Source: Actinomycetota bacterium
GTDB lineage: Bacteria > Actinomycetota > Actinomycetes > Nanopelagicales > Nanopelagicaceae
Assembly (NCBI GenBank): GCA_016195215.1
Contig: JACPZY010000096.1
Span: 1-37,495, forward strand
Direction: 5' to 3'
DNA length: 37,495 bases
The stretch's first letter is position 1. Each line of letters starts with the position of its first letter. The position numbers and the translations under genes are program-made. This document shows, in pieces, positions 13,120 through 29,327 of the stretch. The notes below the pieces were generated by a model. It searched no databases. It was not told the origin of the DNA and was given only the letters and a program-made list of their open reading frames with translations.

Positions 13120-13937
13120 TATATTTTCCTCAAAGTTGGGTCGCCCTGCGATCGAAGGCCATCGGCAATCAGATTGACGCCAATGACTAATGCAACAAGG
13201 CAGAGACCCGGAGCGATGGCGGCAATCGGAGAGGTGAGAACAGTGACTTGTGCTTCTTGTAGCAAGCTCCCCCATGATGCATTCGGTGGGGGCGCACCAA
13301 GACCTAAGTAGGACAAGCTTGCTTCGCTTAGGCCAGCCAGACCGAATTGCAGCGCAAGACTCACAATAAGTGTCGGCCAGATATTTGGAAGAATGTGTAT
13401 GACAATGACGCGCGGCCATGATGTTCCCGAGGCGCGAGATGCCGTGATGAAATCTTGCGCGAGCACCCGCTTAACCAGTAGCCGAGTGAGCCGTGCGATG
13501 ATGGAGGACATTCCAATGCCAATCGCGATGATGGCCGAACTTAAAGAGGAACCTCTGCCAGCAACGATGAGCATGGCAACTAGAAGCGTTGGAAATGCGA
13601 TGAGAATATCGAGCAACGCCGATACAGACTCATCGATCCGGCGTTGAGCAAAACCAGCCCCAATGCCCACAGTTATTCCAATAAATGCGCCAATGAGGAC
13701 TGAGAAGAATCCAACAGAAAGTGCAATTCTTGCGCCGACCATGAGGCGGCTCAACGTATCTCTTCCAAGTTTGTCTGTTCCAAGAAGATGTTGAAGATTC
13801 GGCGGGGAGAGGCGACCTCCTGTTGTGTCGCTCAATTGATAAGGCGTCCAGAAGAGAGACACCAGTGCGACCAGCGCGAGTAGCCCTACGAGCAGGTATC
13901 CGACAATCAGCGTCAGAGGACGACTCTTGATCTTCAT
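13119..13937 (-). CDS. Oligopeptide/dipeptide ABC transporter permease (OppC/DppC-like)
   Basis: LLGTDKLGRDTLSRLMVGARIALSVG, DFITASRASGTSWPRVIVIHILPNIWPTLIV, LSEASLSYLGLGAPPPNASWGSLL. Confidence 0.93.
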   Translation of the reverse strand: MKIKSRPLTLIVGYLLVGLLALVALVSLFWTPYQLSDTTGGRLSPPNLQHLLGTDKLGRDTLSRLMVGARIALSVGFFSVLIGAFIGITVGIGAGFAQRRIDESVSALLDILIAFPTLLVAMLIVAGRGSSLSSAIIAIGIGMSSIIARLTRLLVKRVLAQDFITASRASGTSWPRVIVIHILPNIWPTLIVSLALQFGLAGLSEASLSYLGLGAPPPNASWGSLLQEAQVTVLTSPIAAIAPGLCLVALVIGVNLIADGLRSQGDPTLRKI

Positions 13938-14899
13938 CCTCTTGTCGCTGTCAGGGATTTATTCAGGCGTGGATCCATCCACCGTTGAATGAGGTCTACG
14001 CAGAAACCAATAATGAGCACGGCCATGGTGCTCACAAATAGGACTCCCTGAATCACCGGGTAATCACGTTGGGAGATTGCCCTCACAAGGAGACTGCCAA
14101 GTCCAGGTAGTGCAAAAACACTTTCAACGACAACGGCTCCAATGAATGTAGTAGCCAGCTCAATTCCTAGAATCGAAACGACGGGTACGGCAGCGTTTCG
14201 CACCCCATGCCTCCACATTGCTTCTACATAGGAGGAGCCAAGTGCACGAGAAGTTCGTATGTAATCGCTACCAAGCACATCCAATGTTGCCGATCGGATA
14301 TAACGAGTCAGCGATGCTGACATCACTATGGCAATTGTTAAAACTGGAAGTAACAAGGACTTGAGAGCCCCGGCAGTATCAGCCCATCCATCACTGGGAA
14401 ATCCACCTGCAGGCAGAACCATCAGGCGAAGCGAGAATGTGAGAATGAGAAGGACGCCGACCCAGAATACGGGTATGGCGATCCCAAGTTGCGAGATGGC
14501 ATTGAGAGCTGATCCGTACCAAGTCCGTGCTCGGTAAGCGGCGACAAAGCCAAGTGGAACTGCAACTATCAAGGCGAGCAGGAAGGCGGTCATAGTTAGA
14601 GGCACGGTGATTGACATACGGGAGGCGATTTCTGGAGCTACAGCGACGCCACTAATCAATGAGTTGCCGAAGCGTAAAGAGAAGAGCTGCACTATCCACT
14701 TCAAGAATTGTTGCAGAAGGGGTAAATCCGACCCAACTTTATGTTGAGCTGCGGCTATTTGCTCGGGTGTCGCGCCGACACTTAATAGCGCATTGGCGGG
14801 GTCTCCGGGTAGAAGTCGGAGTAAGACGAAGAGTGAGACGCTCGCTAGAAAGATTGAGAAAAAAAGGAAAGTAAGTCGTCGTATGAGATATTTCAACAT
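13934..14899 (-). CDS. Oligopeptide/dipeptide ABC transporter permease (OppB/DppB-like)
   Basis: MLKYLIRRLTFLFFSIFLASVSLFVLLRLLPGDPA, DYIRTSRALGSSYVEAMWRHGVRNAAVPVVSILG. Confidence 0.93.
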   Translation of the reverse strand: MLKYLIRRLTFLFFSIFLASVSLFVLLRLLPGDPANALLSVGATPEQIAAAQHKVGSDLPLLQQFLKWIVQLFSLRFGNSLISGVAVAPEIASRMSITVPLTMTAFLLALIVAVPLGFVAAYRARTWYGSALNAISQLGIAIPVFWVGVLLILTFSLRLMVLPAGGFPSDGWADTAGALKSLLLPVLTIAIVMSASLTRYIRSATLDVLGSDYIRTSRALGSSYVEAMWRHGVRNAAVPVVSILGIELATTFIGAVVVESVFALPGLGSLLVRAISQRDYPVIQGVLFVSTMAVLIIGFCVDLIQRWMDPRLNKSLTATRG

Positions 14900-14936: not shown

Positions 14937-14974
14937 AATCCGTCCCAGGTACGAAAGCGTACCTGGGACGGATT
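14937..14974 (-). other. 17-bp perfect stem-loop between peptide-binding-protein gene and permease gene
   Basis: AATCCGTCCCAGGTACG (14937-14953) / AAAG loop / CGTACCTGGGACGGATT (14958-14974), exact reverse complements. Confidence 0.9.
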
Positions 14975-15005: not shown

Positions 15006-16493
15006 TTAGCCCTTCGTAATGTTGTAGGCGAAGAACTGCGAATTAAGCCCATTGATTGGATATCCAGATAACGTAGAAGAAGCCACGACAATCTGAGGGT
15101 AAAGATAAATCCAATCGCTCGCCGCATCTGCCACGATTATTCTATTTGCTCTTTTGAGCAATTGAGTCTGAGCCGTGGCCGACTTTGCTTGCTCGGCTGC
15201 GTTAATTAAGGATATTACACGGGGATTGTTGTAACCCCAGTAGAAATTTGGATTGCCGTACCAGACGACATCACGATCGTTTACGTGCTCCTGCAAAGTT
15301 GCCGCATAATCGAGTTTCTTGTAGACGTTGTTATACCACTGGTCAGCGGTGATGATGTTGATATTTACGGTGATGCCAACCTTTGCAAGCTCAGACTTGA
15401 TAAAAGTCGCAGCAGCTGGATGTGGATCGTAGTTTGGAGTGTCGAGTCTGAAGGTAAAACCCTTGGGATAACCGGCCTGAGCCAATTGCTTCTTAGCCAG
15501 AGTGGGGTTGTATGGATTTACCTTTGTGAGGTTTTCATACCAAGGATCCGTTGGGGGAACCATCGATCCAGTAAGTGTTCCGTACTCTCCCCAAATTGAC
15601 TGCAGAAGCTTCTTATTATCTATTGCTGATGTAATCGCTTTACGGACTAGCGGTTTCTTGAATGGGGCGACTCGATCATTGAAGACGAGGAGAAGTTTGG
15701 TCGTAGAGGCACCATTGGTGATCTTAAATGCCGAACTCTTGAATTGGGCGAGTGCATCGGGACTCTGTTCGCTGGTAATGACATCCACGGCGCGAGTGAG
15801 GAGTGCGTTATTGAGAGCAGTGGCATCGGTGAAATAGCGGAAAACCACCTGCTTGTTCTTAGCAGCTGATCCCCAATACCCGTCAAACCGGTTCAAACTA
15901 AGGGTTGATCCGCGCTTCCAAGTTCCCAAAGTGTATGGACCTGTTCCATCTTCACTAGCGCTGATGTCCTTAGCGTCCTCGTTCACAATCCAGATGTAGC
16001 TCAAGTTGTAGACGAAGGAGATTGAACGGCTGGAAAGAGTTATTACAACACTCTTGTCGTTCGGAGTTGCGACAGATTTTACAACCTTGAAACTACTCTT
16101 TCTCGCTGATTGCGAATTGGCAGCGGTGACTTTTCCGATGCTGTACTTGACGTCGGCCGAAGTGAGGGTCTTTCCCGAGTGGAAACGGACATTACTACGG
16201 AGTGTGAATGTGTAAGTCAATCCGTCAGAGCTGATTTTGTAGGCTGTCGCAAGGAGGTTCTCTACCTTGCCGGAGTCCGTCAACTTGAAGAGGCCTTCGT
16301 ATACATTGCCGTTGAGGGCCTCAGTGACTCCCTGCCCACCTCCGCCTGTGTTATCTAGATTCTGTGGCTCGTAAAGGGAGCCTATATTAATTGTGGCGTT
16401 AGAATCCGCCGCTATTGCATTCGTGGTTGTAGTAACAAGACTGAGGGCAAGCACACCGACCATGGCGAACTTACCAAACTTCTTCGTGTTCAT
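15006..16493 (-). CDS. ABC transporter substrate-binding protein, oligopeptide/dipeptide family 5 (OppA/DppA-like)
   Basis: Signal peptide followed by SLYEPQNLD, RSNVRFHSGKTLTSADVKYSIGK, FNDRVAPFKKPLVRKAITSAIDNKKLLQSIWG; family SBP_bac_5 pattern. Confidence 0.9.
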   Translation of the reverse strand: MNTKKFGKFAMVGVLALSLVTTTTNAIAADSNATINIGSLYEPQNLDNTGGGGQGVTEALNGNVYEGLFKLTDSGKVENLLATAYKISSDGLTYTFTLRSNVRFHSGKTLTSADVKYSIGKVTAANSQSARKSSFKVVKSVATPNDKSVVITLSSRSISFVYNLSYIWIVNEDAKDISASEDGTGPYTLGTWKRGSTLSLNRFDGYWGSAAKNKQVVFRYFTDATALNNALLTRAVDVITSEQSPDALAQFKSSAFKITNGASTTKLLLVFNDRVAPFKKPLVRKAITSAIDNKKLLQSIWGEYGTLTGSMVPPTDPWYENLTKVNPYNPTLAKKQLAQAGYPKGFTFRLDTPNYDPHPAAATFIKSELAKVGITVNINIITADQWYNNVYKKLDYAATLQEHVNDRDVVWYGNPNFYWGYNNPRVISLINAAEQAKSATAQTQLLKRANRIIVADAASDWIYLYPQIVVASSTLSGYPINGLNSQFFAYNITKG

Positions 16494-16856
16494 TATTCCT
16501 TCTCTCTTGTAAGTGGTGGTTTAAAGATTTAATTCGAGTTCGATCAGTGGACCTGGTGGCCGATAGTGAATATTGGGTCGATTGGGGCAGAGCAGTTTTC
16601 AAGAGTTTGATTCGGCTCCCCACAAATGGGGGATTCTTAATGACCGACGTGAATTAGAAGTTGCAACAGATAGCGCTAGATGTGCGCTTCAAATCAATGT
16701 GACGACGGGTAACATGCTCACTAAACACAGACCGATGTTAGTCTATTGGTCGCTTTCATATCTGCGTCGGCTTCTCTTATGAGAATGCCTTGCAGAAGGC
16801 GCAGTAATGGGTCAGGCGTTTCGTTCTGTTCAATTTCAAAGGGAAGGGATTGAAGC

Positions 16857-18248
16857 ATGGGAAAAGTCACAGTCACATTTCTAGGTGCGACAGCAACCGT
16901 CACCGGTAGCAGATTTCTGGTTGAGAGTGAGAAATCAAGGATTGTCGTAGACGCCGGTCTATTTCAAGGATTGAAAGCAGACCGGAAGAGGAATTGGGAT
17001 CCATTTCCTGTCGAACCATCGACAATTGATGCAATCGTCCTGACGCACGCACACTTGGATCATTGTGGGTACTTACCTTTACTCGTGCGCCAAGGATTTA
17101 GAAATCAGATTTTTGCCACGGAATACACCATTAAGTTGGCAGCGGTCATTCTTCGGGACTCTGGGCACCTACAGATGGAGGATGCAGAATTTGCAGCGAA
17201 GAAGGGATTTTCAAAGCATCCAACCCCGCTTCCGCTCTATAACTTGGATGATGTTGAAAAAACTTTAAATCATTTTACTGAGGTGCCCTTCCGCAAGAGG
17301 ATCCAATTAACTCAAGACGCCTCCGCTACTTATTTTCCGTCAGGACATATTCTGGGATCAGCCTTCGTCTTATTGGAAATTGATGGGAAGGCCTTACTTT
17401 TCACCAGCGATATGGGGCGGAGCAACCATCCCCTTCTGGCATCGCCGGATAGGCCACCACAGATGGCTCTTGATGCCGTAATAACGGAATCTACTTATGG
17501 CAATCGAGTTCACGAGACACCAATGAGGTCTTTTGCTGATGAAATCAATGCCGGAATGAAGCGTGGCGGATCCATACTTATTCCAGCATTCGCGGTTGAT
17601 CGCACGGAAGTGATTCTGATGGCCCTTCGGGAGTTGATAACCGATCGATCGATTCCAAACATTCCGATCTACGTTGATTCTCCAATGGCCCTAACGGCAC
17701 TGGACTATTACCGAGAGGCGGTCAAGGAGGACGCCCCAGAGCTCGGTGCAGGTGTGGGAGAACGTTGGAAGTCCGTGGACCCGTTTGACCCAGGAAATCT
17801 CCACCAGATGCGAACAACGGAGCAATCAAAATCCCTTAATGAGTTGAAAGATAAAAGCATCATTATTTCAGCAAGCGGTATGGCGACTGGGGGGCGAGTA
17901 GTTCACCACTTGGCCAACATGCTGCCTGACCCGAAGAACACCGTGATTCTCGTCGGATTCCAGGCTGCGGGTAGTCGAGGTCGATCCCTAGAGGAGGGAA
18001 AAAAAGAGATCAAGATGTACGGCAAATGGGTGCCAGTCCAAGCGCACATTGTGAAGGTTGAAAATTTCTCTGTGCATGCCGATTCTAATGAACTCATTTC
18101 CTGGCTGCGAGAGATTTCACATTCAAAAGAGGCTTTTGTAGTCCACGGTGAACCGGATGCGCAGAATTATTTAGCATCACGTCTTCGCACCGAATTGGGA
18201 TGGAAAGCGACCGTTCCTAAGACTGCCCAAGTTTATGAGGTGGGCTAA
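16857..18248 (+). CDS. MBL-fold / beta-CASP metallo-hydrolase with RNA-specificity domain (predicted RNA-processing nuclease)
   Basis: VVDAGLFQG, LTHAHLDHCGYLPLLVRQGF, SGHILGSAFVLL, ESTYGNRVHE, IISASGMATGGRVVHHLANMLPD, FSVHADSNEL. Confidence 0.93.
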   Translation: MGKVTVTFLGATATVTGSRFLVESEKSRIVVDAGLFQGLKADRKRNWDPFPVEPSTIDAIVLTHAHLDHCGYLPLLVRQGFRNQIFATEYTIKLAAVILRDSGHLQMEDAEFAAKKGFSKHPTPLPLYNLDDVEKTLNHFTEVPFRKRIQLTQDASATYFPSGHILGSAFVLLEIDGKALLFTSDMGRSNHPLLASPDRPPQMALDAVITESTYGNRVHETPMRSFADEINAGMKRGGSILIPAFAVDRTEVILMALRELITDRSIPNIPIYVDSPMALTALDYYREAVKEDAPELGAGVGERWKSVDPFDPGNLHQMRTTEQSKSLNELKDKSIIISASGMATGGRVVHHLANMLPDPKNTVILVGFQAAGSRGRSLEEGKKEIKMYGKWVPVQAHIVKVENFSVHADSNELISWLREISHSKEAFVVHGEPDAQNYLASRLRTELGWKATVPKTAQVYEVG

Positions 18249-19978
18249 GACCGTCCGACTACTGGCGGGACGAATCTACGTATTTCCGGAGTTGGGGCTC
18301 TGAGGAAATCAAAGTCACAGCCTTCATCTGCCTGGAGCACATGTGCCTGATAAAGAGCGGGCCACCCTCGCAGGTGCGGGCTTACCGGTGGAACCCAAGC
18401 CCTCTCTCGTTCAGCAAGTTCTGCATCGGTGAGACGCACATGGAGCGAACGGTTTGGAACGTCGAGTTCGATGATGTCGCCATCTTTAACCAATCCAAGC
18501 GGACCGCCAATAGCGCCTTCGGGTGCGACATGCAGAACGCAAGTGCCAAAAGATGTTCCACTCATACGAGAATCAGTGACTCGGACCATGTCGACCACAC
18601 CTTCTGCCGCAAGTTTCTTTGGAATCGGAATCATTCCCCACTCTGGCATTCCGGGGACGCCGACGGCTCCGCAACCTGAAAGAACGAGCACACTATCTCT
18701 TGTAACATCGAGATCGGGATCATCAATACGGGTGCGCATATCTTCATATCCCGTAAAGACGACGGCGGGACCTGCGTGCGTTATCAGTTCATGTGATGCT
18801 GCCGAAACTTTGATTACTGCGCCCTTAGGTGCGAGGTTGCCGGAGAGAACAGAGAATGCACCTGTGGGTCTTATGGGATTGTCGATTGATCTAATTGCCC
18901 TGTTGGACTCAACTCGCGGCGACATATGTTCGCCAAGGGTTTTTCCGGTGAGGGTCTTTGAATCAAGTTCGAGGAGTTCTCGAAGTTCATAAACAAGCGC
19001 TGGTAACCCACCTGCCTTATGAAAATCCTGAATTAGCCCAACACCGGAAGGTTCCACATCAGCAAGAACAGGAATGTTCTCTCCGAGATTCGCGACGCTC
19101 CCCAGGGTGAGCTCGCCACCGATACGTCCGGAGATTGCTATTAAATGGATGAGGGCGTTGGTAGAGCCACCACATGCGTGAAGCACGCGTATGGCATTTC
19201 GAAAAGCTTGGGGTGTCATGATGTCGGAAGGAAGGATCTGCTCTCGTACCATCTTCACAACTTCACGGCCAGATGCGAATGCTGCAATCTTTCTTGCCGC
19301 ATCATTATTTGGAATTGTGGAAGTTCCGGGAAGAGACATTCCCAAGGCTTCAATCATCAGAGCGACTGAGGAGGCCGTACCCATTGTGTTACAGGATCCA
19401 AGACCGCAACTGAGACAGCTCTCAAATTCTCTCCACTCCTCGGCTGAGATCTTCTCGGATCGATAATCTGCCCACATCCGCCAGAGATCAGTGCCAGTTC
19501 CGATCCGTTTCCCTTTATACATTGCTGCGGGACGGGCGCCAGCAGTAAACATGACCGTTGGGAGATTTGAACTTGCCGCACCCATAAGAGCGCCAGGGAC
19601 ACTCTTGTCGCAATTTGCCAGCAGAACAACTCCGTCGAGCGGGTAAGAGCGCAGGTACTCTTCAACCTCCATAGAAAGTAAGTTGCGGTAGAGCATTGCC
19701 GAAGGCTTCATAAGATCTTCGCCAAGTGACATCACAGAAAAGACAAGTGGGATACCGCCAGCATCAACTACTCCGGCCTTGACATCCTCGATGTAATCGC
19801 GCAATGGAAGATTGCAAGGGTTCAGTTCACTAGAAGAATCGGCGATTCCTATGACTGGTCGGTCGTTATCGGGTTCAATTTTCAACCCGACCGAGGCCAT
19901 TACTACCCGATGCGATAGTGCGACTTCGTCATTGCCGGCAAACCACTCGCTACTTCTTAAGGTGTGCTCAGACAACAT
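18245..19978 (-). CDS. IlvD/Edd-family dehydratase (dihydroxy-acid or sugar-acid dehydratase)
   Basis: GVVLLANCDKSVPGALMGAASSNLPTVMFTAG, GLGSCNTMGTASSVALMIEALGMSLPGTSTIP, HACGGSTNALIHLIAISGR, DSRMSGTSFGTCVLHVAPEGAIGGPL. Confidence 0.92.
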   Translation of the reverse strand: MLSEHTLRSSEWFAGNDEVALSHRVVMASVGLKIEPDNDRPVIGIADSSSELNPCNLPLRDYIEDVKAGVVDAGGIPLVFSVMSLGEDLMKPSAMLYRNLLSMEVEEYLRSYPLDGVVLLANCDKSVPGALMGAASSNLPTVMFTAGARPAAMYKGKRIGTGTDLWRMWADYRSEKISAEEWREFESCLSCGLGSCNTMGTASSVALMIEALGMSLPGTSTIPNNDAARKIAAFASGREVVKMVREQILPSDIMTPQAFRNAIRVLHACGGSTNALIHLIAISGRIGGELTLGSVANLGENIPVLADVEPSGVGLIQDFHKAGGLPALVYELRELLELDSKTLTGKTLGEHMSPRVESNRAIRSIDNPIRPTGAFSVLSGNLAPKGAVIKVSAASHELITHAGPAVVFTGYEDMRTRIDDPDLDVTRDSVLVLSGCGAVGVPGMPEWGMIPIPKKLAAEGVVDMVRVTDSRMSGTSFGTCVLHVAPEGAIGGPLGLVKDGDIIELDVPNRSLHVRLTDAELAERERAWVPPVSPHLRGWPALYQAHVLQADEGCDFDFLRAPTPEIRRFVPPVVGRS

Positions 19979-19987
19979 GTATGTACC

Positions 19988-20902
19988 TCACGGCTTAGGA
20001 ATACCTAGCCCAGCGGCACCAGGATCAGATTGCTTAAATGGCTTTCCACTTCGCTTGAGCCATTCGAGCGAAATTTCCGCACGGCGCACCTTCTCGCGAG
20101 CAATGGCAATCGCGTCATTCTCTAGGTGCATACCAGAAGGATAAATCCCGCGAGAGTTCCGCAATCCAAACTTTACATAAAGAGGCGAGGAAACTGCGAC
20201 CAGATCTGCAATTTCGTTTCCCCGCACGACACCACCGAGGCTATCTGGAGCTTCAACGTATAGGTCTAGAGGTAAATCTGTTGCTCCGCGCATTTCTGCC
20301 AATTCATGGATTGTGAGGTCTGTTGGCAGATTAATAGTGTCTCCACCAATGGATTGAAGGAGCTTAACGGTTGCAGGATTGGATGGTGCCTTCATTGCAG
20401 AGACTTTTAAGACGGCGTCACCAGGAATTTCTCCCTTAGCGCGAGCGCCAGATAGAACTTGTAGAAGTCCAAGGTCGGCAACGAGAAGGCCGCGGATGCC
20501 ACATTCAAATGCGCGCAGCGCGTCTTCGACCGCGTAACGAAGTTGTCGCATTCCGCGGATAGATCCACCGAGGGCAGCACCTTCGGGAGCGCGTGACATC
20601 GCCCCGACTCCCCACTCCTCGCGTGGTCCGATAAATAGCGAAATTTCCAAACCTGCATCCGAACCGATCTTCGACATCTCTCTCAACTCAGATTCAGTGT
20701 GTAACATCGCGCCACTGCCCTGTGAGACGCGGTTGATAGTGACTCCACGTTTTTTGGCTTCTTCAAGAGCGGCGCTGAGCACCTTTGGCCCTTCAATAGA
20801 AGGAATTTCAATTCGAAAATGTGCACCATCTGGAAAGCGCGCGGTGCTGGCCAATGGAAGTGACTCTGGGCCGAATTCGCCCAATAAGGTATCTGCGAGC
20901 AT
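19988..20902 (-). CDS. Uncharacterised protein, U32-peptidase-like TIM-barrel
   Basis: ORF 317 aa to 20941; internal ATG at 20902 (MLADTLLGEFGPESLP) preferred because the upstream codons overlap a palindromic operator. ALRAFECGIRGLLVADLGLLQ and INLPTDLTIHELAEMRG resemble barrel proteins annotated as U32-like. Confidence 0.55.
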   Translation of the reverse strand: MLADTLLGEFGPESLPLASTARFPDGAHFRIEIPSIEGPKVLSAALEEAKKRGVTINRVSQGSGAMLHTESELREMSKIGSDAGLEISLFIGPREEWGVGAMSRAPEGAALGGSIRGMRQLRYAVEDALRAFECGIRGLLVADLGLLQVLSGARAKGEIPGDAVLKVSAMKAPSNPATVKLLQSIGGDTINLPTDLTIHELAEMRGATDLPLDLYVEAPDSLGGVVRGNEIADLVAVSSPLYVKFGLRNSRGIYPSGMHLENDAIAIAREKVRRAEISLEWLKRSGKPFKQSDPGAAGLGIPKP

Positions 20903-20912
20903 TAAAATGTCC

Positions 20913-20973
20913 GTTCGGTATTGCCGAACGTCGTTCGGCAATACCAGTATTCCTTATCCGCCCTGATTGTCAA
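20913..20973 (-). promoter_or_regulatory. Promoter with overlapping palindromic operator upstream of the U32-like/IlvD pair
   Basis: Minus strand: TTGACA (20968-20973), 16-nt spacer, AATACT (20946-20951); operator GGTATTGCCGAAC-GTC-GTTCGGCAATACC (20917-20945) plus an extra half-site GTTCGG (20913-20918). Confidence 0.7.
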
Positions 20974-20979
20974 CGATTG

Positions 20980-21618
20980 CTAATCCTCTTCCAGATTCGG
21001 TTCAATGAGGCGCTCAAGTTTTCGTTTGAGAAAGAGGATCACGATAACGACAACAGTGAGGAAGCCTATGGCCCAGTATTTGAGGACGTTCTCAAGTTTG
21101 GCTAGTTGATTTGAAAATTCGTAACCTAAGAGAACGACAATGGTTGAAAAAACAATGCCGCCAGCGGCGTTCCATTTGAGAAATGTCCAGTACGGAACTC
21201 GATTCATTCCAGCGAGAGCTGGGACAAGGGCGCGTAAGAGTGCTTGTGCTCTCCCAAAGAAGATTGCCCCCCCGTGATACTTATCAAAAATATGTTGGGC
21301 GAGACGCCAACGTTTAGCTCCGACCAATTTCCCCATCCGGGAAACTTCGATCCGCGGACCAAAGTGCTTTCCCACTTCGTAGCCCACTGAATCACCAGCA
21401 ATTGCTCCAATGATCGCGCTGAGGAGAAAGAGCCAGAGCGGCCAAACTTTCTGATAGGCGAGAACGCCTCCTATGAGTAGAGATGTCTCACCTGGCAGTA
21501 CAAAGCCAACAAAAGCCGCAGCTTCGGTGAAAGCTAAGAGGATGAGCAGCATGAAGAGGGGTATCTGAAGATTATTGGCTACGAGCCAGTCGGCCGTGGT
21601 TTGAATCCATTGGGACAT
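20980..21618 (-). CDS. DedA-family membrane protein
   Basis: AAAFVGFVLPGETSLLIGGVLAY, GDSVGYEVGKHFGP, GRAQALLRALVPALAGMNRVPYWTFLKWNAAGGIVFS. Start 21618 (MSQWIQ) or 21642. Confidence 0.92.
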   Translation of the reverse strand: MSQWIQTTADWLVANNLQIPLFMLLILLAFTEAAAFVGFVLPGETSLLIGGVLAYQKVWPLWLFLLSAIIGAIAGDSVGYEVGKHFGPRIEVSRMGKLVGAKRWRLAQHIFDKYHGGAIFFGRAQALLRALVPALAGMNRVPYWTFLKWNAAGGIVFSTIVVLLGYEFSNQLAKLENVLKYWAIGFLTVVVIVILFLKRKLERLIEPNLEED

Positions 21619-21656
21619 GAGGGTAAGCCTATTGGTAGGCACTATCTTTATCTCTT

Positions 21657-22850
21657 GTGACGACTCATAGGGGTTCTATTCGAGTGCTTATGCTGGTCGC
21701 AACATCGGTAGCCACTGATACTCGAGTGCTACGAGAAGCCCAGAGTTTGGTGAGAGATGGCTATGAGGTGTTGATCATCGGCCGAAATGTGCCCGATGAC
21801 TATGTGGCGCCAGAGGGGATTGCCGTTTATTCGGCATCGAGTGGAAGGGGCTTACGCCCATCATCGATAGGCTCAATGACCGCAAAGAGGATGCCTCTAC
21901 ATATACGCGCGATTCGGTGGGCACTTCTACCGTTACACCGCAGACGCTCTTTCCAGGCCTGGGCTAAATCCGCCTATGCCGTCGGTTCAACCTTGAAATT
22001 TGACCTCGTTCATTCGCATGATTACACGGCGCTCGCACTCGGTTCGCGTCTGGCAACCGAGCGGAATCTTCCACTTATATATGACAGCCACGAGTGGTGG
22101 TTAGGAAAACAACGACAGTATCGACCTACTCCGATCTCGGATCTGAGAGAGGCTAAGGTTGAGCAGAGACTATCGCAGCGGGCCGCGGCCGTAATTACCG
22201 TCGGCGAATCAATTGCAGGGCTGATGCGAAGTAAACGTGGAGTTAAGGATGTCTACGTTGTGCGCAATAGTTTTCCTGACTCTGGAGATCAGAGTAAGAG
22301 GGTCGCCTCACCACCTAACGGAATAATTTACGCCGGAAGAATCGACGCTTACCGCGAACTCGAAGTAATAATCGAAGTTTCGAGGGAGATTGATTTGCAA
22401 ATCTCCTGGATGGGTGAGCACGAAAATCAGTGGGCCTCGAAATTTGTTCCGATAGCAAGGGAAGCGGGAATTGAAATCTTGCCTTCGCAGCCGTTAGCTG
22501 CTGTGACGACGGCTATGCAGAGTGCAGGTTTAGTATTCGTCACTCATTCCAACCGGTTCGAGTCTCATCGCTTGGCAATGCCAAACAAACTTTTCCATGC
22601 TGTTCATGCTGGCGTTCCCTTGATCGCAACAGATGTAACCGAACTAGGTAATATAGTGCGCCAATTCGACATAGGTGAGTTATATAAACCTGGTGATGCT
22701 ACGTCGATGGCGGAGGCGATATCGAGAGCGATCTCCCGACATGCAATTCTCATTGAGAATGTTAATCGAGCAAAATCAGAATTGTCATGGGAAAGAGATT
22801 CAGAAGTGTTGAGCAGCATCTATAGGCAAGTTTTAGCAGAGGTTCGATAA
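21657..22850 (+). CDS. Glycosyltransferase (GT4-like)
   Basis: RVLREAQSLVRDGYEVLIIGR, LVHSHDYTALALGSRLA, LIYDSHEW, IIYAGRIDAYRELEVIIEV, PNKLFHAVHAGVPLIATDVTELGNIV. GTG start. Confidence 0.88.
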   Translation: MTTHRGSIRVLMLVATSVATDTRVLREAQSLVRDGYEVLIIGRNVPDDYVAPEGIAVYSASSGRGLRPSSIGSMTAKRMPLHIRAIRWALLPLHRRRSFQAWAKSAYAVGSTLKFDLVHSHDYTALALGSRLATERNLPLIYDSHEWWLGKQRQYRPTPISDLREAKVEQRLSQRAAAVITVGESIAGLMRSKRGVKDVYVVRNSFPDSGDQSKRVASPPNGIIYAGRIDAYRELEVIIEVSREIDLQISWMGEHENQWASKFVPIAREAGIEILPSQPLAAVTTAMQSAGLVFVTHSNRFESHRLAMPNKLFHAVHAGVPLIATDVTELGNIVRQFDIGELYKPGDATSMAEAISRAISRHAILIENVNRAKSELSWERDSEVLSSIYRQVLAEVR

Positions 22851-23953
22851 TGGCGAAATACGACGTCAGTATTCTCGCCACGGGTAGAGATGTTTCTAAT
22901 GCTCGTCTGCAGCGAGTCATGGCGTCATGCGTATCCGCGGGGCTCAAGGTCGAACTTTTTAGCACCGGTAACAAGTGCGACACTCCTGCAGGAGTGGACT
23001 TTCATACTGTCGCGAAAGGATCACTCGCGATGCGGGTAACTAATGCATTGATCACCCCCTGGCGCGCGAGAGGCCGTGTTCTCTTTACTCCAGACCCAGA
23101 GGGTGCGATCGCCATCTGGTTAAGTTGCATCATTTATCGTCGTCCTTGGGTCGCGGATGTTCGGGAGGACTATCGACTCCTAATTGAAGACAGGGCGTGG
23201 GCTAAAGGTCTACAGAAATTGGTAGCGATACTTCTTGCAAAACTTGCCCTCTTCTCCAGTGCGAGGGCTGACGTAACTGTCGTTGTCGACGATTGGGTCC
23301 GCCCACTACAAGCGAAGAAACGATTGGTCGTGAGGAATGCGCCGGACACTCGTTTTTTGCCTGAAATAAGCGATCCAGATCTTTCTCCGCGCGCACTCTA
23401 TGTCGGAGACGTGCGGGGTTCGCGTGGACTCTGGTCGATGCTTCGTACCATGGAGTTGGCACCTGATTGGCAATTGGACGTAGTCGGGACAATTTCCAAA
23501 GAAGATATATCTCAGGTGCTCTCCTGGAAAGAGAAATCTCCCGCTGCACTGCGCGTGAAATTTCATGGTGCTCTTAATCCACAAGAGTCCTGGAAACTTG
23601 CCAGCGGAGCTTGGGTTGGTCTGTCGCTACTCGAAAACACTCCAGCATTCCGACGCGCATGGCCTACGAAAATCGGGGAGTACTTGGCTTGCGGAATACC
23701 TGTGATAACTACGGATCTACCCCGTCCTAAGGAGGTCATAATTGAAACGCGCGCGGGTGGTACCGTGGACTTTGACACCAACGAATTGACGGCTGGGCAG
23801 ACTGCAGGGATTTTGAATTCTTGGGCTGAAAACCCCGATAAATATGCTGCAGTACGTGGACGCGCGCGAGACCAAGTGGAGAAATGGCGGAGTGGCGCAA
23901 GTTACGACCTGATCGCTCAAGCAATTGCGGGATTAACTGAGGTCAAAAGGTAA
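22850..23953 (+). CDS. Glycosyltransferase
   Basis: LFTPDPEGAIAIWLSCIIYRRPWVADVREDY, LYVGDVRGSRGLWSMLRTMELAP, TKIGEYLACGIPVITTDLPRPKEVI; TAATG overlap with upstream gene. Confidence 0.83.
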   Translation: MAKYDVSILATGRDVSNARLQRVMASCVSAGLKVELFSTGNKCDTPAGVDFHTVAKGSLAMRVTNALITPWRARGRVLFTPDPEGAIAIWLSCIIYRRPWVADVREDYRLLIEDRAWAKGLQKLVAILLAKLALFSSARADVTVVVDDWVRPLQAKKRLVVRNAPDTRFLPEISDPDLSPRALYVGDVRGSRGLWSMLRTMELAPDWQLDVVGTISKEDISQVLSWKEKSPAALRVKFHGALNPQESWKLASGAWVGLSLLENTPAFRRAWPTKIGEYLACGIPVITTDLPRPKEVIIETRAGGTVDFDTNELTAGQTAGILNSWAENPDKYAAVRGRARDQVEKWRSGASYDLIAQAIAGLTEVKR

Positions 23954-23962
23954 GGTTTGCAT

Positions 23963-24565
23963 ATGTCCTCTCCGCGTATCCATGCCACTTCTGATGTCGC
24001 GGCAGACGTTGAAATTGGCGACGGCTCTTCAATCTGGCATTACGCCCAGGTCCGCGAAAATTGTGTGCTTGGTGAAAATGTAATCGTCGGTCGAGGTGCC
24101 TATATTGGAACTGGTGTGCATGTTGGATCAAATAGCAAGATTCAAAATTACGCTCTCCTCTACGAGCCAGCACTTTTAGAGGCTGGAGTATTTATCGGTC
24201 CTGGCGTGATCTTGACGAATGATGAATATCCACGTGCAATCAACCCAGATGGATCGCAGAAGAATGGGAGTGATTGGGAAGCCAAAGGCGTGATAATACG
24301 TGAGGGTGCTTCAATCGGAGCGGGAAGCATCTGTGTTGCCCCGGTTGAAATTGGAGCTTGGTCATTGGTGGCGGCGGGGTCAACCGTTACCAAAAATGTC
24401 CCAGCATTCGCGCTTGTTGCTGGAGTGCCAGCAAAGCGCATTCGTTGGGTCGGTAAGGCTGGCGTACCATTGACGGATGATGGCGCTGGAAATTTCACTT
24501 GTCCAAAAACTGGCGCGCGTTATTTCCAACGCGATGCAAATACTCTGGCGGAAGTAGAAAAATGA
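23963..24565 (+). CDS. wbpD: Left-handed-beta-helix N-acetyltransferase, WbpD/WlbB-like
   Basis: Hexapeptide repeats IGDGSSIWHYAQVRENCVLGENVIVGRGAYIGTGVHVGSNSKIQNYALLYEPALLEAGVFIGPGVILTND, AGVPAKRIRWV. Confidence 0.85.
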   Translation: MSSPRIHATSDVAADVEIGDGSSIWHYAQVRENCVLGENVIVGRGAYIGTGVHVGSNSKIQNYALLYEPALLEAGVFIGPGVILTNDEYPRAINPDGSQKNGSDWEAKGVIIREGASIGAGSICVAPVEIGAWSLVAAGSTVTKNVPAFALVAGVPAKRIRWVGKAGVPLTDDGAGNFTCPKTGARYFQRDANTLAEVEK

Positions 24566-25647
24566 GCAGAATGATTCCAGCAGCAAAACCAATTATTGGC
24601 GAAGAAGAGCGCGCTGCGGTAGATCGCGTGCTGCAATCTGGCATGCTGGCGCAAGGCCCAGAAGTCGCGGCATTTGAGAGTGAATACTCCGCTACGGTAC
24701 AGAACCGTTACTGCATCGCAGTTAACTCGGGTACTTCGGGACTTCACATGGCGCTAGAGGCGATCGATATGAATGCTGGCGATGAAGTTATCGTGCCATC
24801 CTTCACCTTTGCGGCAACTGCAAACGCGGTAGCCCTCACTGGGGCTACTCCTGTTTTTGTTGATATCGATCCCCTCACTTTCAATATCGATCCCAAAGCA
24901 GTTGAAGCCGCTATAACGCCTCGCACTCGCGCGATTCAACCCGTTCATCTTTATGGGCAACCAGCAGCGATGAAAGAAATCATGGCTCTTGCCAAGCGCC
25001 ACTCCCTCTTGGTTGTTGAGGATGCCGCTCAAGCTCACCTGGCCTCTCTAGATGGAACCCCCGTTGGTGCATTTGGTATTGCCGGTGTTTTCTCTTTCTA
25101 CCCCACTAAGAACATGACTTCTGGCGAAGGAGGCATGATCACAACTGGATCGGATGAGGTTGCCCGTCAGTGCAGGTTGCTGCGAAATCAGGGTATGGAG
25201 AAACGTTATGAGAATGAGATCGTTGGATTCAATACTCGAATGACGGAGATTCATGCTGCGATCGGTCGAGTTCAATTGCGAAAATTGGCGAATTGGACTG
25301 CGATTCGCCAAGCAAATGCAGAGTTTCTCAATGAGAACCTAAATGGCGTTGTTGTCCCCTACGTTGCTCCGGGAGCCGTTCACGTTTATCACCAATACAC
25401 GATTCGAGTTGTCGGTCATGACCGAGATGCGTTTGCTGCCGAGATGTCCAAGCGCAGTGTTGGAAGTGGCGTTTACTACCCGATCCCGGTTCACAAACTT
25501 CCATCCTTTGGCTTATCTTTCGATCTCCCCGAGACCTCACGAGCATGCAGAGAAGTTCTCTCGATTCCAGTCCACCCCTCACTCTCACCAGGCGATCTTG
25601 AAACAATAGTCTCGGTAATCAATTCAATTGCCGCAGCAGGTGCTTAA
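24562..25647 (+). CDS. wbpE: DegT/DnrJ/EryC1 PLP-dependent sugar aminotransferase, WbpE-like
   Basis: GTSGLHMALEAIDMNAGDEVIVPSFTFAATANAVALTGATPVFVDID, VEDAAQAHLASLDG, SFYPTKNMTSGEGGMITT (PLP lysine). ATG 24562 overlaps the upstream stop. Confidence 0.92.
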   Translation: MSRMIPAAKPIIGEEERAAVDRVLQSGMLAQGPEVAAFESEYSATVQNRYCIAVNSGTSGLHMALEAIDMNAGDEVIVPSFTFAATANAVALTGATPVFVDIDPLTFNIDPKAVEAAITPRTRAIQPVHLYGQPAAMKEIMALAKRHSLLVVEDAAQAHLASLDGTPVGAFGIAGVFSFYPTKNMTSGEGGMITTGSDEVARQCRLLRNQGMEKRYENEIVGFNTRMTEIHAAIGRVQLRKLANWTAIRQANAEFLNENLNGVVVPYVAPGAVHVYHQYTIRVVGHDRDAFAAEMSKRSVGSGVYYPIPVHKLPSFGLSFDLPETSRACREVLSIPVHPSLSPGDLETIVSVINSIAAAGA

Positions 25648-25650
25648 GTA

Positions 25651-26643
25651 GTGGCAAATCTCCGTGCTGGATTGGTCGGACTTGGCATGATGGGACGACA
25701 CCATGCACGAGTTCTTGCATCACTTCCTGGCGTTGACCTCATTGGCGTTTCAGATCCTGCGGGGGATCTTGCTGGCGTTGCCCAGGGTCGCACAGTTGTC
25801 AGTTCAGTAACTGAGTTGATTGCTATGGGAATTGACTACGCAATGGTTGCGGTACCAACTATCTACCATTTGGAAATCGGCAAGGAACTTGCTAGGGCAG
25901 GAATTCATGCAATGGTGGAGAAACCGCTTTCCCATGACACGCTCACCTCAAAAGAATTAACGAAGGCATTTAGCGATGCAGGACTGATCGGAGCAGTGGG
26001 ACATATCGAGCGGTACAACCCATCGCTGCAGGAAGCTCGTCGTCGACTCAGTCAACTCGGTGCGCTCTATCAAGTGGTTACTCGCAGGCAAGGGCCGTTC
26101 CCTGCACGAATTGCCGATGTCGGTGTTGTTAAGGATCTCGCAACTCACGATATTGATCTCACCTCCTGGATCACAAGCCAGACTTACACTTCGGTCTCTG
26201 CTCGCACCGCGCTACGGACAGGGCGGGTGCACGAGGATCTCGTTGCGGTCGTTGGCACTCTGGCCGATGGCACAATTACAAATCATCTGGTCAACTGGCT
26301 AAGCCCGCTCAAAGAGCGGGTAACCATATTGACGGGCGAGAAGGGAGCTTTTGTCGCAGACACCTTGACCGCTGATTTAACCTTTTACGCTAACGGTACC
26401 GTCACTTCTGGGTGGGATGAGATCGCCCAATTCCGCGGAGTGAGCGAAGGAGATGTCATCCGATACGCGATATCCAAACACGAACCGCTTCGCATGGAGC
26501 ATGAGAATTTCCGCGATGCCATTCTAGGCAAGCCGGCCGACATTGTGACTATGGAACAGGGTTTAGCGACCGTTGTGGTTGCCGAAGCCATTATCGAGAG
26601 TGCACAGAGAAATTCGACGGTCATGATACCTGCGTCACGATAA
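25651..26643 (+). CDS. wbpB: Gfo/Idh/MocA-family oxidoreductase, WbpB-like
   Basis: RAGLVGLGMMGRHHARVLASLPGVDLIGVSDP, MVEKPLSHD, AVGHIERYNPSLQEARRRL; GTG start. Confidence 0.88.
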   Translation: MANLRAGLVGLGMMGRHHARVLASLPGVDLIGVSDPAGDLAGVAQGRTVVSSVTELIAMGIDYAMVAVPTIYHLEIGKELARAGIHAMVEKPLSHDTLTSKELTKAFSDAGLIGAVGHIERYNPSLQEARRRLSQLGALYQVVTRRQGPFPARIADVGVVKDLATHDIDLTSWITSQTYTSVSARTALRTGRVHEDLVAVVGTLADGTITNHLVNWLSPLKERVTILTGEKGAFVADTLTADLTFYANGTVTSGWDEIAQFRGVSEGDVIRYAISKHEPLRMEHENFRDAILGKPADIVTMEQGLATVVVAEAIIESAQRNSTVMIPASR

Positions 26644-26652
26644 TTGCTTTCC

Positions 26653-28023
26653 ATGAATCCCGAAGAACGCTCCAAGGTCCATATTCTCTCAATAGTTACC
26701 AATAATGCGGTCGGCGATTCAAGAGTTCTCAAGTCTGCAGAGACTTTAGCGACAGCGGGGTACAAGGTGACGCTGCTCGCCGGGCTTATTGGTCATGTTC
26801 CACCAACTGAGTCGATAAAGGGTTTCACAATTCTTCGTGCGCCGAGTGTTAGTAAGTACGGCCAGAATAGACATCGACCCCTCTTTCCTTTTAATTACAT
26901 ATTGGATTTGAGTAATCAATACCTTCCTCGAGGAAAGCGCTTTGTTCGTTACGGATGCAAAATGTTTACTCCAGATCGCTTACTTTGGCGTTGGGCAACT
27001 CCGATCCTGATAAAGATTTCCCCTAAATTTCTCTATTTATGTTGGCCAATTCTGAAAGATGGCGAGAAGACTTTTGGGAAGGTCATCGATGAACTTAAGC
27101 CAGACATCATTCACGCCAATGACTGTGACACCCTCGGGCTGGCTATGCGAGCAAAGAGGCGTGCCTTTATTAAAGGCCGTTCAATAAGAGTTCTTTACGA
27201 CGCCCATGAGTACGTGAGTGGCGTGCATCGCAAGCACCCAAACTGGCGGTTGGCGATGACAATGTTAGAGCGCTCGTCTATAAAACGCGTTGATGCGGTG
27301 ATGACTGTCTCCGAAACGATTGCTGGGATGCTTGCTGATGACTACCAATTGAAGGAGCGACCTGCTGTCGTTCTTAATGCTCCACGCCGCCAACAACCTA
27401 TGATCGACGAATCACTTCAAACTATCCGCAAAAAGATCGGTTTGGCTCCTAATATTCCCCTTCATCTATATGTTGGCGCGGCTGCGCCACAGCGCGGTCT
27501 AGATACGATGGTTGAGGCGCTGGTGGCAGCACATGGTCATCACATTGCACTCGTGGTAAATACAAATGCGCCTTATATAAATGGTCTGCTAAAGAAGGCG
27601 GTTGATCTTGGCATTCGGGACCGAGTGCATGTCCACCCGTACGTACCCGAGTGGTACGTCTCTACTTTTGCCTCCGATGCGACGAGTGGGGTGATTCCAA
27701 TCTTGCACCACCCAAATCATGAAATTTCCCTAGTGACCAAATATTTCGAGTATCTGCACGCTCGCATTCCAATCATTGTAAGTGACGTGAAAACGATGTC
27801 TGAGGAGATTCTTCTGCAAGGCAATGGTCTCGTCTTTCCTGCCGGAAAAGCTTACGAATTGGCTGATCGATTTGAAAGGATAACCGTCGACCGTGCTCAA
27901 TATCTTGCAGCGATTACCGAATCCATGCTTGACGAATATTCGTGGGAGCTGCAAGGCGATAAACTAGTCGAGGTCCATGATGGGCTCGCCCAACTTGCCA
28001 CACTCAAGAGAAAGACGAGATGA
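26653..28023 (+). CDS. Glycosyltransferase (GT4-like)
   Basis: NAVGDSRVLKSAETLATAGYKVTLLAG, IIHANDCDTLGLAMRAK, VLYDAHEYVSGVHR, LYVGAAAPQRGLDTMVEAL, TKYFEYLHARIPIIVSDVKTMSEEIL. Confidence 0.88.
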   Translation: MNPEERSKVHILSIVTNNAVGDSRVLKSAETLATAGYKVTLLAGLIGHVPPTESIKGFTILRAPSVSKYGQNRHRPLFPFNYILDLSNQYLPRGKRFVRYGCKMFTPDRLLWRWATPILIKISPKFLYLCWPILKDGEKTFGKVIDELKPDIIHANDCDTLGLAMRAKRRAFIKGRSIRVLYDAHEYVSGVHRKHPNWRLAMTMLERSSIKRVDAVMTVSETIAGMLADDYQLKERPAVVLNAPRRQQPMIDESLQTIRKKIGLAPNIPLHLYVGAAAPQRGLDTMVEALVAAHGHHIALVVNTNAPYINGLLKKAVDLGIRDRVHVHPYVPEWYVSTFASDATSGVIPILHHPNHEISLVTKYFEYLHARIPIIVSDVKTMSEEILLQGNGLVFPAGKAYELADRFERITVDRAQYLAAITESMLDEYSWELQGDKLVEVHDGLAQLATLKRKTR

Positions 28024-29327
28024 GGGATTCTTTAATGAAAATCACCGTAGTCGCGCTTGGCAAAATTGGTCTTCCCCTTGCAGTTCAGTTTGCACGCAAA
28101 GGTCACTCGGTCATCGGAGCGGATGTTAATGAATCGACGGTTGCCCAAGTTAGAGCGGGAGTTGAACCCTTCCCGGGTGAAGACCATTTAGCTGAGTATT
28201 TGAAAGAAGTTGTGGTAAGCGGGCATCTCCAAGCCACAACCGATACTACAACTGCAGTTGCGCAGAGCGATGTTGTTGTTGTTGTTGTCCCACTTTTTGT
28301 TGACGAGCAAGGTGTTCCCGATTTTGGATGGATGGATGCAGCAACTGAGGCGATTGGTAAAGGGCTAAAACCCGGCACACTCGTCTCGTACGAGACCACA
28401 CTTCCAGTTGGAACAACTAGAACACGCTTCGCGCCTGCTCTTGAAAGAGTATCCGGTTTGACAGCTGGCGTTGATTTCCACTTGGTCTTCTCGCCCGAAA
28501 GAGTTTTTACGGGCCGGGTTTTTGCTGACTTACGTAAATATCCAAAATTGGTGGGAGGGGTTGACGCGGCTAGCGGAGCACGCGGCGTCAAATTCTATGA
28601 AGATGTGCTCGATTTCGACTCGCGGTCCGATCTCGCACGGCCTAATGGTGTCTGGGATCTCGGGAGTTCTGAGGCTTCAGAATTGGCTAAATTGGCCGAG
28701 ACCACTTATCGCGACGTGAACATTGCACTAGCAAATCAATTCGCGCTCTTCTCAGAATCCCATGGAATTGATGTTCAGAAAGTTATTGATGCATCCAATT
28801 CGCAGCCATTTTCGCATATTCATCGCCCTGGAATTGCGGTGGGTGGCCATTGCATTCCGATCTATCCCCGTTTCTATCTCTGGAATGATCCAGCAGCAAC
28901 TGTGGTTAGTGCCGCACGAAGCGCAAATGCAGCAATGCCCGCGCATGTTGTCAATACACTGGCAAAGATCCACGGCGATCTACGTGGGCAACGCGTTGTG
29001 GTATTAGGTGCTGCTTATCGTGGTGGAGTAAAAGAGACAGCCTTCTCCGGAGTTTTCCCCACAGTATCCGCTCTTGAGCAAGCTGGTGCTGTAGTGAGTG
29101 TTCAGGATCCGATGTATACCGATGATGAGTTAGAGCACTACGGATTCCAGAGTTATCATTTTGGAGAAGAAGTTGACGCTGCGATCGTGCAAGCGGACCA
29201 CAAGGAATATCGTCAATTGTCTAAGAGCGACCTACCAGGTTTACAGACAATTCTTGATGGCAGGGGCATTACTTCAGAAGAGAATTGGCGGGGAGTTCGC
29301 TACCACGTTGTCGGGCGGGCTCTCTAG
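28020..29327 (+). CDS. wbpA: Nucleotide-sugar (UDP-HexNAc type) 6-dehydrogenase, WbpA/WecC-like
   Basis: MKITVVALGKIGLPLAVQFARKGHSVIGAD, FSPERVFTGR, ELAKLAETTYRDVNIALANQFALFSE, GIAVGGHCIPIYPRF, GAAYRGGVKETAFSG. ATGA overlap with upstream gene; 28035 is an alternative start. Confidence 0.92.
   Translation: MRDSLMKITVVALGKIGLPLAVQFARKGHSVIGADVNESTVAQVRAGVEPFPGEDHLAEYLKEVVVSGHLQATTDTTTAVAQSDVVVVVVPLFVDEQGVPDFGWMDAATEAIGKGLKPGTLVSYETTLPVGTTRTRFAPALERVSGLTAGVDFHLVFSPERVFTGRVFADLRKYPKLVGGVDAASGARGVKFYEDVLDFDSRSDLARPNGVWDLGSSEASELAKLAETTYRDVNIALANQFALFSESHGIDVQKVIDASNSQPFSHIHRPGIAVGGHCIPIYPRFYLWNDPAATVVSAARSANAAMPAHVVNTLAKIHGDLRGQRVVVLGAAYRGGVKETAFSGVFPTVSALEQAGAVVSVQDPMYTDDELEHYGFQSYHFGEEVDAAIVQADHKEYRQLSKSDLPGLQTILDGRGITSEENWRGVRYHVVGRAL

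Follow-up and report, generated by a model that had tools for sequence, protein, structure and literature searches.

We found that the promoter of a two-gene operon in the window (the whole stretch of 37,495 nucleotides that was analysed) carries a compact three-box site, which we consider, with a probability of roughly 85%, to be the operator of an IclR-family factor repressing this U32-like/ilvD sugar-acid catabolic operon. The layout of the site is known; the most interesting feature is the loss or rewiring of the regulator.

On the minus strand, the elements follow each other in the order TTGACA-16 nt-AATACT-7 nt-CCGAAC-GAC-GTTCGG-CAATA-CCGAAC-GGACATTTTA-ATG (Table 1). The TTGACA-16 nt-AATACT promoter described by a previous reading of the sequence only was recovered with a score of 10/12, and the ATG of the U32-like gene (20902-20900) lies 10 bp past the three-box operator CCGAAC-N3-GTTCGG-N5-CCGAAC (20913-20938). 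Boxes 1 and 2 (CCGAAC-N3-GTTCGG) and boxes 2 and 3 (GTTCGG-N5-CCGAAC) form alternative palindromes. With a spacing of 20 bp, boxes 1 and 3 make up a direct repeat on the same face of the helix. These data support the design proposed by the sequence-only reading, namely three half-sites and two dimer registers with the central box in common. The third half-site it had reported (GTTCGG, 20913-20918) is present, and the 15-bp palindrome attributed to it grows to 17 bp (GTTCGGTATTGCCGAAC, 20913-20929). The 29-bp palindrome (GGTATTGCCGAAC-GTC-GTTCGGCAATACC) also exists as claimed, with both 13-bp arms intact, and can alternatively be read as 14-bp arms around a one-base loop. Its arms are longer than those found in all 40 simulated first-order Markov windows (longest 10 bp), and the 2.05-Mb genome contains no other match to it when up to three mismatches are allowed.

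Table 1. Features of the locus, its alignment to the closest relative, and near matches to the operator in the window genome.
Feature	Position	Strand	Remarks
-35 element TTGACA	20968..20973	-	TTGACA or TTGACT in 12/12 orthologous loci
-10 element AATACT	20946..20951	-	AATACT in 11/12 orthologous loci, AATAAT in 1/12; spacer 16-17 nt
Operator box 1, CCGAAC	20933..20938	-	invariant in 12/12 close orthologous loci
Operator box 2, GTTCGG	20924..20929	-	common to both dimer registers; invariant in 12/12 close loci
Operator box 3, CCGAAC	20913..20918	-	CCGAAC in 8/12, CCGAAT in 2/12, CAGAAC in 2/12 close loci
29-bp palindrome	20917-20945		13-bp arms without mismatch
U32-like protein	19988..20902	-	304 aa, predicted TIM barrel; first gene of the pair
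IlvD/Edd-family sugar-acid dehydratase	18245..19978	-	577 aa; second gene of the pair
VTT/DedA-domain membrane protein gene	20980..21642	-	PF09335; directly upstream, co-directional
Deletion junction (simplest reading)	20974..20982		between VTT gene and promoter; ~1.04 kb of L076 with IclR gene absent
Aligned block	16847-20978		L076 13787-9647
Aligned block	20981-21653		L076 8604-7932
Near matches to the operator, window genome	C125:22647, C56:7540, C225:8742		

We compared 12 loci, that is, the window and 11 loci encoding close orthologues of the U32-like protein (75-88% identity). They come from three genera within a single family, and L021 and L022 among them are identical in promoter sequence. 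The sequence-only reading had named a lack of conservation of the palindrome at orthologous loci as evidence against itself. Instead, the promoter and the three boxes are kept in 12/12 loci, directly upstream of the ATG and at a fixed distance from it. The boxes and N5 each average 96% pairwise identity and the -35 element 95%, as opposed to 43% for the -35/-10 spacer, 48% for the 8 bp that precede box 1 and 59% for N3. The outer 7-bp arms of the 29-bp palindrome (20917-20923 and 20939-20945) are specific to the window genome and are not conserved as a palindrome. Since identity reaches 96% in the boxes but only 43% in the spacer and 48% in the 8 bp next to box 1, the three boxes are constrained and the outer arms not. 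The comparison thus points to the three CCGAAC/GTTCGG boxes as the functional unit, and the 29-bp palindrome can be ruled out in this role because its outer arms differ between orthologues. Therefore, of the claim of an operator on the U32-like/IlvD promoter, the predicted protein-binding operator stands while the 29-bp palindrome as its conserved unit does not. In the order as a whole, the three-box pattern was found in 27 of 296 genomes at up to two mismatches, the weakest of these matches being no better than those of a reversed control.

A palindrome with so long a stem might instead act as an RNA hairpin, either a leader structure or a terminator, rather than as a protein site, and the plus strand does contain a terminator-like match. 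However, no pair was changed on both sides among 22 sites, the fold of the leader was only slightly better than that of shuffled sequences (z-score -1.56), and the outer stem precedes the inferred transcription start and is not conserved. Furthermore, conservation follows the single boxes, including box 3, which lies outside the stem of register 1+2. With no compensatory changes and a weak fold, the hairpin or terminator reading is disfavoured, and we consider it very improbable.

The assignment of the operator to the IclR family comes from its genomic neighbourhood. Most of the close orthologous loci have, divergent from the U32-like gene, a regulator gene of the IclR family; at one of them (L083) this regulator matches the Pfam families IclR_C and HTH_IclR. 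In named genomes of more distant Actinobacteria, the U32-like gene is often still linked to an IclR gene, at about 40-54% identity. When we searched the 200 bp upstream of IclR in 25 such IclR-linked loci, allowing up to four mismatches of 18, CCGAAC-N3-GTTCGG-N5-CCGAAC was found in 19 of them; 300 other half-sites of equal G+C content gave a mean of 0.08 loci and at best 5, a control that provides a scale and not a probability, given that the 25 loci are not all mutually independent. The motif count showed a sharp optimum at spacings of 3 and 5 and dropped steeply at other spacing pairs. In the distant genomes, the motif is mostly found before the linked IclR gene and not directly before the U32 gene. 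In the closest relative of the window genome (G003), a second copy of the three-box operator is flanked by an IclR gene on one side and a sugar ABC transporter on the other. The IclR gene as divergent neighbour in most relatives, together with the motif upstream of IclR in distant Actinobacteria, makes the assignment to the IclR family, with a three-box type of operator, well supported at the level of comparative genomics. Of the two classes suggested by the sequence-only reading, IclR or GntR, we thus retain the former; a GntR-family operator is not needed, the regulator linked at the orthologous loci being an IclR. Among NCBIfam models, the linked regulator scores best against BhcR (153 bits) and IclR (138 bits), yet both scores are far under the curated cut-offs of 350 and 380, so it is neither.

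Three-box sites have been predicted for 32 IclR orthologous groups, with two proposed modes of dimerisation (Suvorova and Gelfand 2021, PMC8222616). That study cites PcaU, PobR and HmgR as IclR-family proteins with three-box operators and states that PcaU binding requires the third box. As described there, these operators resemble ours in having three boxes, a palindrome with an external direct repeat of the half-site, one box belonging to two palindromes, and half-sites of the GTTCG type. On the other hand, the box in the window is GTTCGG with a 5-bp centre (GTTCG-N7-CGAAC), compared with GTTCG-N5-CGNAC for PcaU, PobR and HmgR, its boxes, unlike theirs, extend over the region where transcription of the target operon would start, and the target is predicted sugar-acid catabolism instead of aromatic compounds. 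Of the two published groups, boxes 1 and 2 (CGAAC-N3-GTTCG) agree with group 2 (GRAAC-N3-4-GTTYC), whereas boxes 2 and 3 (GTTCG-N7-CGAAC) are one to two bases wider than group 1 (GTNCG-N5-6-CGNAC). Being too wide for group 1, the site is classed here by family and three-box design and not as a group 1 site. Since three-box sites with two modes are already described in PMC8222616, the two-register idea is a known proposal, to which the window adds a well-conserved example.

How the operator might work is suggested by its position. The transcription start would lie near 20939, 7 nt past the -10 element, and relative to it the three boxes would cover about +2 to +27, which suits a repressor. RNA polymerase would be blocked by one dimer, or two, bound there, with box 2, at the centre, allowing the alternative registers 1+2 or 2+3, and an intermediate of the pathway may then release the IclR-family factor from the operator. 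We infer repression from the position of the operator only, and some IclR proteins activate. As the divergent IclR gene of the relatives has the operator in common with the operon, it is probably self-regulated.

In the window genome, as the sequence-only reading had remarked, no regulator gene is adjacent to the operon. This does not extend to the relatives, where a divergent IclR gene is usual, and the idea of a cognate factor encoded elsewhere overlooks that the regulator is normally adjacent and that ~1.04 kb with the IclR gene is absent here. When aligned to G003 (88% protein identity), the window falls into two blocks that abut at 20978/20981 and lie 1.04 kb apart in G003, with the IclR gene inside the intervening ~1.04 kb. 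Because most other relatives also have an IclR gene at this locus, its deletion in the window lineage would explain the absence most simply; a misassembly at this position inside the contig is also conceivable. We found no IclR remnants in the window by tblastn, the sole good match being to the U32-like gene, read on its reverse strand, and to its promoter, both of which are also spanned by the over-long query frame. The deletion places the VTT/DedA gene directly upstream of the operon in the same direction, so that read-through into the operon is possible. In another genome (G034), the promoter and operator (L079 8547-8582) precede the U32-like gene with no adjacent IlvD or IclR gene, and an IclR of the subfamily was not found in that genome. 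G034 is thus another genome in which the operator stands without a regulator of its own.

With the adjacent IclR gene deleted, the operator in the window would be either served by a paralogue or left unoccupied; these are alternatives inside our main explanation and not against it. The window assembly contains one IclR of the subfamily, on contig C125, and the close, type A copy was not found; this is an assembly of 228 contigs, from which a further subfamily IclR may be absent. The C125 protein shares 54% identity with regulators of type A and 92% with a further IclR of G003. Its gene adjoins an oligopeptide-type ABC transporter and has a CCGAACACTGTTCGG (CCGAAC-N3-GTTCGG) site upstream.

A takeover of the operon by this C125 paralogue after the deletion has, in our estimate, slightly less than an even chance. 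It is the sole subfamily IclR in the assembly and carries the CCGAACACTGTTCGG site upstream, and its orthologues in two other genomes (G082 and G019) face GTTCGGCAATACCGAAC, whose 17-bp core is the same as that of the window; this identity makes a takeover of the window operator plausible. However, the C125-type site consists of two boxes, not three, in the window genome and is without a good third box in G003 too, and the ligand of a regulator encoded beside an oligopeptide-type transporter may not suit a sugar-acid operon. A natural regulator swap, in which the operator stayed unchanged and the diverged IclR paralogue of the transporter locus took over, is a tentative idea that we would lean against.

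The operator may instead be a relic, its cognate regulator lost and its promoter now constitutive, still in place only because too little time has passed since the deletion. Indeed, the assembly has neither the adjacent IclR gene nor a type A copy, and in G034, which lacks a subfamily IclR, the operator has drifted (CACTA, CAGAAC). On the contrary, 18/18 box positions and N5 of the window operator are unchanged with respect to G003 despite divergence of the -35/-10 spacer, and the assembly encodes a paralogue that uses these boxes. We therefore regard the relic as possible but not the outcome to be expected. A genome-wide search with the palindrome, which the sequence-only reading had recommended in order to define the regulon, did not reveal a large one: the window genome contains one full three-box site only, and matches to the core with at most one mismatch were not above the reversed control (8 versus 10).

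The function of the operon can be approached through its genes. The dehydratase of the IlvD/Edd family scored 749.6 bits against PRK06131 (cut-off 539) and fell below the cut-off for L-arabinonate dehydratase. The predicted structure of the U32-like protein (mean pLDDT 85.8) gave the YdjI aldolase and the U32 protein Mk0906 as best structural matches; the TM-scores on the query were modest (about 0.42-0.48). The relatives encode, in the operon and among the divergent genes, an IlvD-type dehydratase, a zinc alcohol dehydrogenase, an SMP-30-type lactonase, an aldehyde dehydrogenase, an aldose epimerase and a sugar ABC transporter, a gene set that would fit a non-phosphorylating pathway of sugar oxidation. 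We recognised no other aldolase in the sugar-acid operon besides the U32-like candidate, and we hypothesise from the structural model that this protein may be an aldolase or lyase, possibly the missing lyase of the pathway. The library searched contained no literature on a link between U32 proteins, IclR regulators and dehydratases. In one relative (G045), the genes for the solute-binding protein and IlvD each appear to be split into two reading frames (L080 8404-9746 and 9762-11504), by frameshift or assembly error, while the operator and IclR gene are intact.

Altogether, the locus provides a well-supported pairing of operator and regulator for a catabolic operon of uncultured freshwater Actinobacteria, and it hints that the U32-like protein may act on sugar acids as an aldolase or lyase. 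The compact three-box design on the start site is convenient for testing the two dimer registers in IclR proteins, and an intact operator next to a deleted regulator gene offers a way to test what becomes of orphan operators.

Two further observations concern other parts of the window. An inverted repeat (14937-14974; 17-bp arms, 4-base loop), located between the genes for an oligopeptide-binding protein (15006-16493) and a permease (13934-14899), is probably an intercistronic stem-loop setting the ratio of the transporter subunits. Moreover, a gene block with, among others, glycosyltransferase-like, aminotransferase, oxidoreductase and acetyltransferase genes occupies 21657-29327, between VTT and ABC genes that are neighbours in G003, an apparent insertion of a surface-glycan cluster.
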